This document shows positions 20,621-33,082 of a stretch of DNA of 42,207 nucleotides, piece after piece. Within the stretch, counting starts at the first letter, position 1. The number at the start of each line of letters is the position of its first letter. Source of the stretch: Bacilli bacterium (GTDB taxonomy: Bacteria > Bacillota_I > Bacilli_A > RF39 > UBA660); the NCBI GenBank assembly GCA_017622175.1, contig JAGARQ010000003.1, forward strand, positions 1-42,207, in the 5' to 3' direction. The translations under genes and the position numbers were made by a program. Under the pieces are notes generated by a model, which did not search any database, had not been told where the DNA came from, and saw nothing but the letters and a program-made list of their open reading frames with translations.

Positions 20621-20737
20621 GGATGCCATATAAAAAGTCCTTCAACTAGACAGCCAAAGAACTTTTTTTGATTACTTTTTAAAGTCCTCGGTAGGATTTA
20701 TTTGTATACCTACTGTCTATGGCACCAACAAATTGTC
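20621..20737 (-). promoter_or_regulatory. L10 leader (ribosomal protein leader of rplJ-rplL)
   Basis: The minus-strand leader holds the family's conserved parts: GTGCCATAGACAGTAGG (20725-20709), CCTACCGAGGACTTTAA, and then AAGTTCTTTGGC and AAGGACTTTTT, which can form a terminator-like hairpin, with ATGGCAT near 20622 able to pair back to the first segment. These match the known L10 leader, which controls rplJL. Confidence 0.9.
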
Positions 20738-20758
20738 TTTATTATAACTCAACTAATC

Positions 20759-27128: not shown

Positions 27129-29369
27129 CTATATATTTAAAATTAAATTTTCTTCAATAGTTTTATCAATAACTTTATCAATTTTTCTAGCACCAGATAC
27201 ATTATAATCAATATTCTTCAATATGTTATCCGCAAGAATTGTGGATTTTTCTTTTGAAATAATACCTTTTTCCACAAAATCTGTTAATTTTTTCTTAATA
27301 ATCTTCCTTATATCTCCAACATTTAATTCATTAAAAATCAAAATACGATCAATTCTATTAATAAATTCAATACCTAAAAAAGATTCAAATTCTTCTTTTA
27401 TACAGTCTACTTTGTCTTTACAAAAACCAATCTCATCCTTGCTTGTTCCTAAATTTGATGTCATAAAAACTATCACATTACTAAAATCCACTTTTTCTCC
27501 ACTAGAAGATGTTAAACATCCTTCATCAAAAACTTGTAAAAATAGTTTTAATACAGAAGGGCTTGCCTTCTCAACCTCATCTAATAGCAAAACAGAATAA
27601 GGATGAATTCTAATTTGATCCAGTAATGAATTATATTCACTATAACCTACGTATCCAGGAGGAGAACCAATTATTTTACTACTACTAAAATCATCTTTAT
27701 ATTCACTCATATCCAATCTAATAAAAGATTCTTTATTATATAACTCTTTAGCATACTCTTTTACCAAAAAAGTTTTTCCTAACCCACTTTTACCAACTAA
27801 TAAGAAGGACAACGGAACATTTTTATTACTTTTATGACAATTACAAGTCAAATTAATTATCTCATCAATAATATTATCTTGACCAAAAACAATATTCTTT
27901 AATTTTTTTGATAATTTTCTTCTATCAAGGCCTTTTAAATGTGATACTGGAATCCCAGTTTTTCTAAATAGTACATTATAAACAATATCCATAGAAACCT
28001 TATTATTCTTTTTTGAACAACTACCATTTAACAGAAAATTATTATATTCACTTTCTTTAATTCTTAATTCTTCTTTAAATAAACTAGCTTTTTTATAATC
28101 ATGTTCTACAATAGCACGGTTTTTATTATCCTTAAGTTTTTTTATTTGAACAATATAATTACGAAGTAATTCATCTTCATAGCTAATTTGTATAGATGCA
28201 TTAGCGCATGCTTCATCAAATAAATCTATTGCTTTATCAGGAAACTTTCCATAAGAAACATATCTATTACACAAATTAACAATTTCTTTAATAACATTAT
28301 CTTCTACAACAACATTATGAAAGCATTCATAAATATCTTTTAAACCATAAAGAATATTCTCTGTTTGTTCTAAACTCAACTCATTAACATATATTTTTTG
28401 AAAACGTCTTTCTAATGCCTTATCAGATTCTATATATTTAATATATTCTTCTTTTGTAGTTGCACCAATAATAGAAACTTTTCCTCTTGCCAAATATGGT
28501 TTTAAAATATTTGAAGCATCAATAGCCCCTTCAGCGCCACCAGCACCGACCAAAGTATGAATTTCGTCAATAAATAAAATAATTGTTTCATCATTTTCAA
28601 CTTCATCAATTATTTGATTAATTCTTTCTTCAAACTCTCCTCTATATTTTGTACCTGCAACTAAAGATGCCATTGATAAACTATAAACTTTTCTATTAAA
28701 TAGTTTCTTGGGAACTTCCCCTATCTCAATTCTCCTTACAAAATCTTCAACAATTGCGGTTTTACCAACACCTGCATCACCTATTAATAAAGGATTATTC
28801 TTTGTTCTACGTAACAAAATCTCAATCAATCTATTTATTTGTTCATCGCGTCCTAATACAGGATCAAAACCATATTCATTATATTTTTTATTCAAATTTA
28901 CAGCATAATCTTCAAGTAATAGTTTTTTACCAACATTATTCTTTTTTGCACAAAAACTATTAATAAATTTTTCATATAATAAATCTATATCAATATTCAT
29001 ACCCATTAAAATTCTATTAGCTACCCCATCACCTTCTTCTAATAGCGATGAAAATAAATCTTCTATAGTTACAACATTATTTTCACCACAATTCAAAATA
29101 GCATTTTCTATTACACGTTTTAATAATGGTGTAAATAAAAACCATTCATTATTACTTTTCCCAACACCTATAATATTAATTATCTCATTTTTAAAAACAT
29201 TGTAAGATACATGATAACTTTCCAAAAACTTAGTAATTGATAAACTTTTATTTTTTAAAATAGCTAAAAGAAAATGTTCACTTCCAACATAAGGATGTTT
29301 TAAATCATACATTTCTTTTTTTGTCATTAATAATATTTTTTGGGCTTCTTCACTAAACCTCGAAAACAT
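27129..29369 (-). CDS. clpC: ATP-dependent Clp protease ATPase subunit, ClpC-like
   Basis: AAA+ unfoldase that feeds ClpP, 746 aa (B. subtilis ClpC 810). Domains: N-terminal Clp_N repeats (about 1-140; MFSRFSEEAQKILLMTKKEM), AAA1 with Walker A GDAGVGKT (197-204) and Walker B ILFIDEIHT, a short UVR-like middle segment (HDYKKASLFKEELRIKESE), and AAA2 with GKSGLGKT, LLLDEVEKA and the family PPGYVGY. After MTSNLG it has an IGF tripeptide, the usual ClpP-docking loop. It is rather diverged. AAGGAGAG precedes ATG 29369. The ctsR-mcsA-mcsB genes that accompany clpC in Bacillus are absent. Confidence 0.93.
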   Translation of the reverse strand: MFSRFSEEAQKILLMTKKEMYDLKHPYVGSEHFLLAILKNKSLSITKFLESYHVSYNVFKNEIINIIGVGKSNNEWFLFTPLLKRVIENAILNCGENNVVTIEDLFSSLLEEGDGVANRILMGMNIDIDLLYEKFINSFCAKKNNVGKKLLLEDYAVNLNKKYNEYGFDPVLGRDEQINRLIEILLRRTKNNPLLIGDAGVGKTAIVEDFVRRIEIGEVPKKLFNRKVYSLSMASLVAGTKYRGEFEERINQIIDEVENDETIILFIDEIHTLVGAGGAEGAIDASNILKPYLARGKVSIIGATTKEEYIKYIESDKALERRFQKIYVNELSLEQTENILYGLKDIYECFHNVVVEDNVIKEIVNLCNRYVSYGKFPDKAIDLFDEACANASIQISYEDELLRNYIVQIKKLKDNKNRAIVEHDYKKASLFKEELRIKESEYNNFLLNGSCSKKNNKVSMDIVYNVLFRKTGIPVSHLKGLDRRKLSKKLKNIVFGQDNIIDEIINLTCNCHKSNKNVPLSFLLVGKSGLGKTFLVKEYAKELYNKESFIRLDMSEYKDDFSSSKIIGSPPGYVGYSEYNSLLDQIRIHPYSVLLLDEVEKASPSVLKLFLQVFDEGCLTSSSGEKVDFSNVIVFMTSNLGTSKDEIGFCKDKVDCIKEEFESFLGIEFINRIDRILIFNELNVGDIRKIIKKKLTDFVEKGIISKEKSTILADNILKNIDYNVSGARKIDKVIDKTIEENLILNI

Positions 29370-29487: not shown

Positions 29488-31350
29488 CTATAGTAATACT
29501 AATATCGTAAAGACAATTAGTAAAACAACAAACACTTCAAGTAAAAGTTTCCAAATTGCCTTTAACCAAGACTTATAAGAAACACCTAAATAAGATAACA
29601 CAGTTACTAAAAGTAAGCTTGTAGGTGCCACTAACATAGTAACTCCATAAACTGATTGGAATAAAATTCCTGCAATTGGATAAACATCACTATTTGTTAC
29701 AACACCAGTAAAATATGGAACTGCAGCTTGGAAAACATATGCAGGGTCTTGATTAAATAATCCTGATAAAATTCCAACTAAAGTTGCAGTAACAACATTA
29801 AATCCTTTACTAATACCTAATAAAGCTTTATAAATAGCTAATTGATATGGATGATATGTTGTAATTACTAAACAAGCATATACAATTAATGCTAAAAATG
29901 CAGGTACAAGCGCTTTCTTAGCTCCATTTGCAAATCCTTCTAATGCATCATCAGCACTTACTTTATAAATAACTGTTAATAAAGCAAGAACTACAGCCAT
30001 TACTAAGAATAGATCGCTAACTGACCACATACCAAAAGGATTTACAGTACCTAATAATTTACCAAAAATAGCAAAGTTAAATAATTCAAATCCTGTTACA
30101 GCTGTTGTAGCATCATTAAATGTTTCTAATCCAAAAGTATCAGCCCATGGAATAAAAGCTAAAATCATAACTACAAATAATAAAATAAATCCTGTTACAA
30201 TTGGCCAAGTTTTATGTTTACTATCTACAACTGTAGGTACTAACCCTGCTACAGATTCATTAACTAATGATTCTTTAACCACGATAACATCATCACCTTT
30301 TGCTGCTGCTTTAATATCTTTTCTACTAGATTTAGATGAAGATTTACCTTTTGTAGTAGTTGTCTTCTTTGTTGAAGTTTTCTTTGTAGTTGAACTCTTT
30401 GTACTTGCTTTTTTAGCAGTAGTTTTTGTTGAAGGTTTAGCTTCCTTGCTTCCTGCTTTTGCAGTTGTTTTTGCAGCTGATTTTGTAGAAGTTTTCTTTG
30501 TAGTAGTTTTCTTAGTTTCTTTAACAACCACACTCTCTGCTTCTTCACTCATAACAACTGTCTTAGCAGCTTTAAGAGCTCCTTTACTACTATTTGAACG
30601 TTTAGCATACATTAAAGTATTAAAAATTAATAATACTAATCCTGCTAATAAGATAATAACTTTAAGTAAGATATTATCCATCATATCAAGTCCAAGAATT
30701 GAACCTAATAATCCTGTATTACTGTACCCAAATGTAGTACCAGCAACACCTATCATTGTAGAACCAACAAGAGTTAGTGCAACAACAATTTTATCGTATC
30801 CCATTAATAAGATAACTGAAGCAAGCATAGGGAAGAATAACATTAATCCAATTTGTAATCCACAAATTGATGTAATAACTGCTAATAAAACCATCATTAC
30901 AGATAACGCAATAGCTTCTTTTCCTTTGCAAATAGCAACAACCTTATCTAAAAAAGTACGATAAGCTGGAATCTTATGTAAAATTCCATAGAATCCACCA
31001 ACTAATACTATGAATAAAGCAATATATCCAAAGTATGATAATGAAGTTAGTGAATAATTAAATACGTCGAATAGACCTATTTGAACGCGTCCTTGATCAA
31101 TATACTCACCAGAATAATAAGCAGCTGGTAAAATCCAAGCAAGTATACATAATGCAAAAGTTGTAACTAAAACAACCTTTAATGTATTGTTCTTATCTTT
31201 TAGATTCCATAACAATAACATTAATTCAACTAATGATAATCCGCATTTAACTAATACTCCCCAATCTTTATCAGGTAAGAATAATGCAGATATTAACCAC
31301 AAAGCAGTCACAACTATAAGAACGACTTTCATTGTATTATGTTTCTTCAT
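29488..31350 (-). CDS. YfcC/DcuC-type membrane transporter with a Lys/Thr-rich H1-like loop
   Basis: A 620-aa polytopic membrane protein resembling the YfcC/C4-dicarboxylate anaerobic carrier superfamily; substrate unknown. About 6-7 hydrophobic segments lie in residues 1-246 and about 6-7 in 382-620, with HPYQLAIYKALLGISKG and a re-entrant-looking NQDPAYVFQAAVPYF in the second half. Between the halves, residues 277-351 (30522-30298) form a low-complexity loop of Lys, Thr, Ser and Ala (about 24 Lys and one Arg, three acidic), like histone H1 tails. GGGAGG precedes ATG 31350. It stands alone between lysS and clpC, with its own promoter and terminator. Confidence 0.8.
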   Translation of the reverse strand: MKKHNTMKVVLIVVTALWLISALFLPDKDWGVLVKCGLSLVELMLLLWNLKDKNNTLKVVLVTTFALCILAWILPAAYYSGEYIDQGRVQIGLFDVFNYSLTSLSYFGYIALFIVLVGGFYGILHKIPAYRTFLDKVVAICKGKEAIALSVMMVLLAVITSICGLQIGLMLFFPMLASVILLMGYDKIVVALTLVGSTMIGVAGTTFGYSNTGLLGSILGLDMMDNILLKVIILLAGLVLLIFNTLMYAKRSNSSKGALKAAKTVVMSEEAESVVVKETKKTTTKKTSTKSAAKTTAKAGSKEAKPSTKTTAKKASTKSSTTKKTSTKKTTTTKGKSSSKSSRKDIKAAAKGDDVIVVKESLVNESVAGLVPTVVDSKHKTWPIVTGFILLFVVMILAFIPWADTFGLETFNDATTAVTGFELFNFAIFGKLLGTVNPFGMWSVSDLFLVMAVVLALLTVIYKVSADDALEGFANGAKKALVPAFLALIVYACLVITTYHPYQLAIYKALLGISKGFNVVTATLVGILSGLFNQDPAYVFQAAVPYFTGVVTNSDVYPIAGILFQSVYGVTMLVAPTSLLLVTVLSYLGVSYKSWLKAIWKLLLEVFVVLLIVFTILVLL

Positions 31351-31437: not shown

Positions 31438-31464
31438 AGAAAAAAGACTCTATTCAGAGTCTTT
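31438..31464 (-). terminator. Intrinsic terminator after lysS
   Basis: The minus strand reads AAAGACTCT, loop GAAT, AGAGTCTTT, then T run. The lysS stop (31452-31450) overlaps the hairpin. Confidence 0.9.
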
Positions 31465-32931
31465 ATTTTCAGTATTTAATGGTCTCATTAATGGGAACAT
31501 AACAACATCTTTTATATTATCTGCATTTGTTAATAATTGAACAACACGATCAATTCCCATTCCCCATCCACTAATTGGAGGCATACCAACTTCCATAGCG
31601 GAAATATACTCATGATCCATTGGCATTGCTTCTTCATCACCATCAGCCTTTAAAGCAGCTTGAACTTCAAGTCTTCTTTCTTGTTCTTGAGGATCAACAA
31701 GTTCTGAATAAGCATTAATTATTTCAGCACCATTGATAATTAATTGGAATCTATCAGTAATTTCTGGATTATCATCATTAGCACGAGCTAATGGACTTAA
31801 ACTAATTGGATGTTCAGTTAAGAAAATAGGATTAACAACGTTTGGTCTAGCAACTTTTTTGTATAATTGATCAACTAAATTACCATATCCTAAATCTTCT
31901 AACGGAGTATCTGAGTCAATTTCAATCTTCTCATCATAAATCTTTTGTAATAATAATTCTTTAGTATTATATTCGTTTATATCAATATTTCCATATTGTA
32001 AAATTAAATCTCTAAAACTAACACTTGGCCATTCTCCACCTAAATCTACTTGTTTATCACCAACAGTAATAACAAGTGAACCAAATAGTTTTCCAATAAT
32101 ATGTTGTAACATTTCTCTTAAGAACTTCATATTGTCTTTATAATTATAATAAGCACAATATCCTTCAATCATAGTAAAGTCTTGTAAGTGAGTTGCATCA
32201 ATTCCTTCATTTCTGAAACATCTAGCAATTTCAAATACTTTATTAATTCCACCAACTACAGCTCTTTTTAAATATGTTTCTGGGGCAATTCTTAAATATA
32301 AATCAATATCTAATGCATTATGATGTGTAATAAATGGTCTTGCAGTTGCACCACTTGCTTTATTATTTAAGATTGGTGTTTCAATTTCCATATATCCAGC
32401 TTCATCTAAATAATTTCTAATTTCACGAATAAATCTACTTCTAAAAATAAATTTCTTTTTAGCATCATCATTCATAATTAAATCTAAATATCTTTCACGA
32501 TAAATAGTTTCAATATCTTCAATTCCATGGAATTTTTCTGGAAGAGGTTTTAAAGCCTTTCCTAAGAAAGTAATACTATCCGCTCTAACTGTTTTTTCAC
32601 CAGTATGAGTAGTAAACACTTCTCCTTCTACTCCAATAAAGTCACCTAAATCATAATTAGACTTAAATTGTTGATATGCTTCTTCTCCGATCATATCCAT
32701 TTTAACAGAAATTTGGATTTTCCCATGAATGTCTCCAATAGTTAAGAAACTCATTTTTCCCATCTTTCTCATTAAAATAATTCTTCCTGCCACTCTAACA
32801 CCAGTTGTTCCATCCTCAAGTTCAGCAGCTTCATGTAATTCATAATTAATTTCATATCTCTCTGGATATGGATTTTCAATATTTTGTAATTTCTCTCTTC
32901 TAACAATTTCTTGTTCACTTAATTCTCTCAT
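31450..32931 (-). CDS. lysS: Lysyl-tRNA synthetase (class II)
   Basis: Charges tRNA-Lys with lysine; cytoplasmic dimer. 493 aa. N-terminal OB-fold anticodon domain (VRVAGRIILMRKMGKMSFL), class II motif 2 FEIARCFRNEGIDATHLQDF, and motif 3 PPISGWGMGIDRVVQLL. I start at ATG 32931 (MRELSEQEIVRREKL) with AAGGAG eight to nine bases upstream; a frame to 32970 lacks one and overlaps the small ORF. It follows dusB and a 39-codon ORF, as dusB-lysS are neighbours in B. subtilis. Confidence 0.98.
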   Translation of the reverse strand: MRELSEQEIVRREKLQNIENPYPERYEINYELHEAAELEDGTTGVRVAGRIILMRKMGKMSFLTIGDIHGKIQISVKMDMIGEEAYQQFKSNYDLGDFIGVEGEVFTTHTGEKTVRADSITFLGKALKPLPEKFHGIEDIETIYRERYLDLIMNDDAKKKFIFRSRFIREIRNYLDEAGYMEIETPILNNKASGATARPFITHHNALDIDLYLRIAPETYLKRAVVGGINKVFEIARCFRNEGIDATHLQDFTMIEGYCAYYNYKDNMKFLREMLQHIIGKLFGSLVITVGDKQVDLGGEWPSVSFRDLILQYGNIDINEYNTKELLLQKIYDEKIEIDSDTPLEDLGYGNLVDQLYKKVARPNVVNPIFLTEHPISLSPLARANDDNPEITDRFQLIINGAEIINAYSELVDPQEQERRLEVQAALKADGDEEAMPMDHEYISAMEVGMPPISGWGMGIDRVVQLLTNADNIKDVVMFPLMRPLNTENKDSE

Positions 32932-32962
32932 TTTATTACTCCTTCTTTTTGTAAGTAACCTT

Positions 32963-33082
32963 TTATACAAGTAGATTAGATTTAGTAACTAACCTACTAA
33001 AAGGTCTAATTTTAAATTTTTGTTTGTCAGATTTATCACTTTTGTCTGATTTCTCAGATTCAGATACATCTTTGTTACTCAT
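32963..33082 (-). CDS. Small ORF (39 aa) between dusB and lysS
   Basis: A 39-codon frame, MSNKDVSESEKSDKSDK at the N-terminus, rich in Lys, Ser and Asp, then a basic segment KFKIRPFSRLVTKSN ending in LLV. ATG 33082 overlaps the last 8 bases of dusB and is preceded at good spacing by AAGGAGGG, one of the strongest ribosome binding sites in the window, which lies inside the dusB end. It ends 31 bases before lysS. No family recognised. The position and the overlap argue for a real, co-translated small protein. Confidence 0.6.
   Translation of the reverse strand: MSNKDVSESEKSDKSDKSDKQKFKIRPFSRLVTKSNLLV

Follow-up and report, generated by a model that had tools for sequence, protein, structure and literature searches.

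Why should a membrane transporter carry, in the middle of its chain, a stretch built almost wholly of lysine, threonine, serine and alanine (K/T/S/A)? The question is raised by a 42,207-nucleotide stretch of a Bacilli genome (GenBank assembly GCA_017622175.1, contig JAGARQ010000003.1, positions 1 to 42,207; hereafter the window), whose minus strand encodes a DcuC/YfcC-type transporter of 620 residues. An earlier note on this DNA had pointed to residues 277-351 as a K/T/S/A-rich segment between two membrane halves, in the place of the central cytoplasmic loop, and had suggested that it might tether DNA, RNA or ribosomes. The segment itself is as described: its 75 residues (30298-30522) comprise 24 Lys, 20 Thr, 13 Ser, 10 Ala, two Glu, two Gly and one each of Pro, Arg, Asp and Ile, so that three are acidic; the reading frame is open throughout, and predicted membrane helices lie on both flanks. 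What is new, judging from comparison with relatives, is that the loop is not private to this genome, that its composition appears to be what is retained, that it seems to have more than one origin and that homologues bear comparable blocks elsewhere on the predicted cytoplasmic side. We infer that it works as a non-specific electrostatic arm. The parts of the gene that bear on this are the following.

29488..31350, minus strand: coding sequence of the DcuC/YfcC-type transporter, 620 residues (open reading frame list, PF03606 match)
30610..31185, minus strand: first membrane half, residues 56-247 (hydropathy, helices in the structural model)
30208..30609, minus strand: whole predicted central cytoplasmic loop, residues 248-381, 134 residues (relatives' alignment, hydropathy, model)
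30328..30522, minus strand: K/T/S/A core of the loop, residues 277-341, with fast-changing sequence and apparently retained composition (composition, nonsynonymous divergence, simulation)
30253..30327, minus strand: conserved distal motif of the loop, residues 342-366, SRKDIKAAAKGDDVIVVKESLVNES (nonsynonymous divergence 0.02-0.04 within the genus)
29491..30207, minus strand: second membrane half, residues 382-620 (hydropathy, helices in the model)

The core contains no aromatic residues and almost no hydrophobic ones, and cores of 54-65 residues carry a net charge of +0.26 to +0.30 per residue. In an AlphaFold model of the transporter, built with eight sequences and of low confidence (mean predicted local distance difference test score, pLDDT, 54), residues 255-377 are disordered, with pLDDT of 22-33 over residues 261-370. 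To which side of the membrane the loop belongs can be read from the other loops: across 59 relatives, with the central loop excluded, predicted inside loops average 3.1-6.1 Lys plus Arg per 16-22 residues and predicted outside loops 0.4-2.3 per 28-44 residues. This charge pattern argues strongly that the central loop is cytoplasmic, together with the N-terminus, and that the ordinary C-terminus lies outside. The topology first suggested is thus supported, but the variant in which the loop faces outward and binds teichoic acid conflicts with it and was rejected.

Within the genus, the core evolves quickly. Its nonsynonymous divergence (dN) is 0.37-0.46, two to seven times the 0.07-0.18 of the membrane part, while synonymous divergence is of like order in the two (0.54-0.85 and 0.41-0.46). 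The replacements nevertheless stay within K/T/S/A in 23 of 28 cases between the window's own protein and that of sibling genome G002 (P 3e-8) and in 19 of 23 between it and that of G001 (P 5e-7), against an expected proportion of about 0.31. The siblings' cores are 0.885 and 0.907 K/T/S/A (89-92% overall), whereas neutral simulation from the window's core at 0.4 substitutions per site gave a mean of 0.59 and a maximum of 0.80 in 2,000 runs; the comparison depends partly on the alignment of low-complexity sequence, and the simulation omits homogenising duplications. Amino-acid composition, rather than exact sequence, therefore appears to be what is retained in the core. Simple slippage of the DNA is disfavoured as the sole cause of the loop, because synonymous codons are mixed (Lys AAA 17 and AAG 7; Ser TCT 4, TCA 5, AGT 3 and AGC 1; Thr ACT 11 and ACA 9) and tandem repeats are short and weak, with scores of 45-57. 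Behind the core, the slowly evolving distal motif, KAA..K..(D/E)VI(V/I)V(K), also written KAA.K.(D/E)VIVVKES, recurs in most long-loop relatives and may be a short binding motif or strand. No RNA element was found in or near the loop; the only Rfam-type find in the window lies elsewhere, an L10 ribosomal leader RNA (RF00557) at 20622-20740 on the minus strand.

Had the loop been missing from all close homologues, a private repeat expansion would have been the simplest account of it. That account is rejected: both genus relatives carry the long loop, as do many other genera, most of the nearest with versions of 66-124 residues. The transporter is present in 219 of 243 genomes of the family, the named relatives being metagenome-assembled gut Bacilli, including goat cecum and colon isolates. 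Among 59 non-redundant relatives, a set weighted to near ones, 23 have loops of 66-133 residues and the other 36 have loops of 23-50, which is also the range of distant orthologues. Long- and short-loop genes are orthologues, as the lysyl-tRNA synthetase gene lysS adjoins the transporter in most relatives of both kinds. A class-wide PF03606 search added 30 proteins with mixed-charge loops, mostly of 30-50 residues, none of which had a K/T/S block of this kind in its central loop. In six genomes searched with the loop alone, the only matches were to the transporter of four; the loops of G004 and G030 went undetected, and a low-complexity search is therefore no fair census.

In a phylogeny of the membrane parts, which leaves the loop out, the long or short state requires five changes, at least four of them on starred (well-supported) branches, compared with a mean of 18.5 when labels are shuffled on the same tree. 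One clade holds most of the long loops, and L045 and L007/L008 are separate cases; within this one transporter family, then, the long polycationic loop seems to have had more than one origin. Two homologues with short central loops carry K/T/S-rich tails at their ends, L041 at the N-terminus (MEKKSSKKTTSKSKSTTAKKTTK) and L022 at the C-terminus (...KKTVTKTKTDTKKKTSSKKKSKK), the latter behind one extra hydrophobic segment that would place it inside the cell. The K/T/S-rich segment therefore appears to occupy three different places in homologues, all predicted to be cytoplasmic.

How unusual such a segment is was gauged in sibling genome G002 (1.50 Mb; 1,429 open reading frames of at least 80 residues). 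The orthologous loop contains the most K/T/S/A-rich 40-residue segment of all (0.95), ahead of a small protein with two transmembrane segments (0.875) and of others at 0.675 and below. Its 75-residue net charge is also the highest among proteins with at least five hydrophobic segments, +19 versus +14 for the next. A general proteome bias is mostly rejected by this first rank among the 1,429, despite a few weaker tails. The runner-up has 152 residues and a K/T/S-rich C-terminal tail, and it is conserved in the genus, with counterparts in the window's own genome and in the other genus relative (L192, G000:C13:67208-67654; L190). A few further membrane proteins of G002 have weaker basic N-terminal tails. 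The genus thus has a small set of membrane proteins with basic cytoplasmic appendages, among which the transporter loop is the most extreme.

We favour, at a rough probability of 40%, the reading that the loop is a selected, non-specific electrostatic arm, acting most simply on acidic membrane lipids. With the loop anchored in the membrane at both ends and its core devoid of aromatic and nearly all hydrophobic residues, the nearest and most concentrated polyanion would be the acidic phospholipids of the inner leaflet. Ionic strength or Ser/Thr phosphorylation could control when the arm binds and lets go, and this would favour some movements of the two halves over others and thereby adjust transport, as the tails of ProP and BetP may do. 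Electrostatic switching of this kind is recognised in disordered basic tails, which attach to lipid and detach from it (PMC10771482), and gating of transport through lipid binding has been proposed for the cytoplasmic tails of ProP and BetP (PMC10710835). Several points weigh against this reading. Short-loop orthologues lack the core, which is thus dispensable for basic transport. Some long loops are charge-segregated: in that of the relative L039, the K/T/S block comes after an acidic stretch (EEDVEEEPEEKEEKK) that leaves the whole loop about neutral, with a predicted net charge of -1, so whole-loop net charge is not what is kept. In-frame duplications inside the core could also keep its composition, the test of which leans in part on aligning low-complexity sequence, and the structural model, with its mean pLDDT of 54, is of low confidence.

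The tethering idea of the earlier note, in which ribosomes, RNA or the nucleoid would hold the transporter through its loop and so slow or position it, is reasonable but unproved; we think it possible, if rather unlikely. Ribosomes are the main binding partner of a polycation free in the bacterial cytoplasm (PMC5726854), and the length and charge density of the core would suit such a partner. Lys-rich, histone H1-like tails are also thought to tether, with AlgP at polyphosphate granules and PhaF at polyhydroxyalkanoate granules, linking the granules to the nucleoid (PMC9239181). Our loop answers to the name "histone H1-like" only loosely: it is Lys-rich, disordered and of low complexity, but Thr and Ser prevail over Ala, and with one Pro and 10 Ala in 75 residues, this is not the Pro/Ala-rich KPAA type of repeat. 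Domain and sequence searches of the transporter found no folded nucleic-acid-binding domain, and a loop tied at both ends to the membrane would meet competition from lipid. Still more doubtful is a fuller version, in which an internal arm selected for its composition docks the transporter on ribosomes or the nucleoid and makes its location or activity respond to cytoplasmic conditions, the arm having arisen more than once and being able to sit at any of the three cytoplasmic sites. Overall, the interpretation that prompted this analysis is partly supported.

Alternatively, the loop may be a near-neutral, low-complexity insertion, a K/T/S sequence tolerated but not used in a permissive central loop of an A+T-rich genome. 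The DNA is indeed 30.6% G+C, loop length ranges from 23 to 133 residues, the sequence changes fast and with in-frame gaps, and K/T-rich tails, though weaker, also occur on a few membrane proteins of G002 besides the transporter. Drift of this kind is hard to square, however, with a composition kept well above neutral expectation, with mixed codons and the absence of a strong DNA repeat, with the loop's first place among the 1,429 reading frames of G002, with several origins and two further sites in homologues, or with the lack of such a block in the loops of all 30 proteins of the class-wide search. We consider it unlikely.

An improbable alternative is a topogenic or assembly role, with the extreme positive charge deciding which way round the two halves insert. 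This would agree with the positive-inside pattern, as would the C-terminal tail of L022 with its extra hydrophobic segment. But the orientation of a membrane protein needs only a few charges, not 25, and short-loop orthologues, with a mean net charge of +3.6, manage without the core.

The immediate neighbours of the transporter, which we named from general knowledge of their families, raise one further possibility.

31450..32970, minus strand: lysS, presumably lysyl-tRNA synthetase, immediately upstream (open reading frame list)
27129..29369, minus strand: presumed clpC-like ATPase, immediately downstream (open reading frame list)

A Lys-rich stretch beside lysS might slow synthesis when charged Lys-tRNA is scarce and so sense lysine, perhaps for a lysine transporter; the lysS neighbour is kept, and yfcC of C. 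difficile is under a lysine riboswitch (PMC11477304). We give this very little weight, since the sign is wrong, an importer controlled in this way being made in smaller amounts just when lysine is scarce, since Thr and Ser are enriched as much as Lys, and since a scan of the window at Rfam thresholds brought up neither a lysine riboswitch nor a T-box. The adjacency itself is better explained by a kept chromosomal block, dus-lysS-clpC-cysS, than by a functional link between transporter and lysS; we take this block to resemble the Bacillus gene order. A polyphosphate-binding arm, for which the association of the H1-like tail of AlgP with polyphosphate granules could be cited (PMC9239181), is likewise highly improbable, as PF02503 (polyphosphate kinase 1) was absent from all 19 family genomes examined, among them the window's own and those of both genus relatives, in a search whose positive controls matched and which did not cover Ppk2.

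What kind of transporter bears the arm? The match to PF03606 (DcuC) is well above its cut-off (E 6.3e-20; 71.6 bits versus 23.1), that to PRK11588 YfcC (E 7e-13) lies far under its own, and the YfcC equivalog NF008611 gives 48 bits versus a cut-off of 500. These scores mark the protein as a divergent DcuC/YfcC-type member, a relative of YfcC and not YfcC itself. A basic amino acid as substrate is hinted at by the lysS neighbour and by the riboswitch of C. difficile yfcC; as an assignment it is only annotation, drawn from the family name and the literature. The model has helices in both halves, and its best matches among solved structures are MleN, NaDC1, NaS1, Pho90 and ArsB (Z 10-17), which we take to be ion-transporter-superfamily folds. 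With MleN, NaDC1 and NaS1 the low-confidence model scores Z 13-17; the fold assignment rests on a VIA second look (Z 16.6 against an MleN model and 15.6 against NaDC1, with 377-409 residues aligned), Foldseek with the same model having returned no match at E 0.001 or below. A sequence search for solved relatives gave no significant match. The model accordingly has the features of two inverted halves in a predicted MleN/NaDC/INDY-like fold.

One other part of the protein departs from the family.

31201..31350, minus strand: N-terminal extension, residues 1-50, with two extra hydrophobic segments (comparison with relatives, hydropathy)

It begins with MKKHNTMKVVLIVV, which is similar to the opening of the core transporter, KDKNNTLKVVLVTT (MKKHNTMKVVL versus KNNTLKVVL), and the extension, limited to the window's genus and a few relatives (L051, L059), is a possible duplication of the first helix. 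The G001 orthologue (L035:7822-8205) has in addition a C-terminal extension of about 125 residues with more hydrophobic segments, absent in the other two genus members.

We found no description of a lysine-rich cytoplasmic transporter loop in the literature searched. The family offers a natural series, orthologous transporters with loops of 23-133 residues in which the polycationic block has seemingly been gained more than once in the loop, with similar blocks at either end of other homologues; through this series the general role of disordered basic arms on membrane proteins becomes testable, in a case where composition rather than sequence seems to be retained. Among known systems, ordinary DcuC/YfcC members share the PF03606 core, and the central loop here starts with YAK(K/R), as ordinary YfcC-type loops do; theirs, however, are mixed-charge loops of about 30-50 residues, whereas the window's protein has a 134-residue loop with a polycationic core and two extra N-terminal hydrophobic segments. 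The H1-like tails of AlgP and PhaF (PMC9239181) are likewise long, disordered, low-complexity Lys-rich blocks of variable length, but they consist of KPAA repeats on soluble or granule-bound proteins, while ours is Thr/Ser-rich, nearly free of Pro and set inside a polytopic membrane protein. ProP, BetP and OpuA (PMC10710835) also bear cytoplasmic appendages on bacterial transporters that are thought to meet anionic lipid or charge; there the appendage is a structured domain or motif at the C-terminus, and here its counterpart is an internal, disordered K/T/S block between the two halves.
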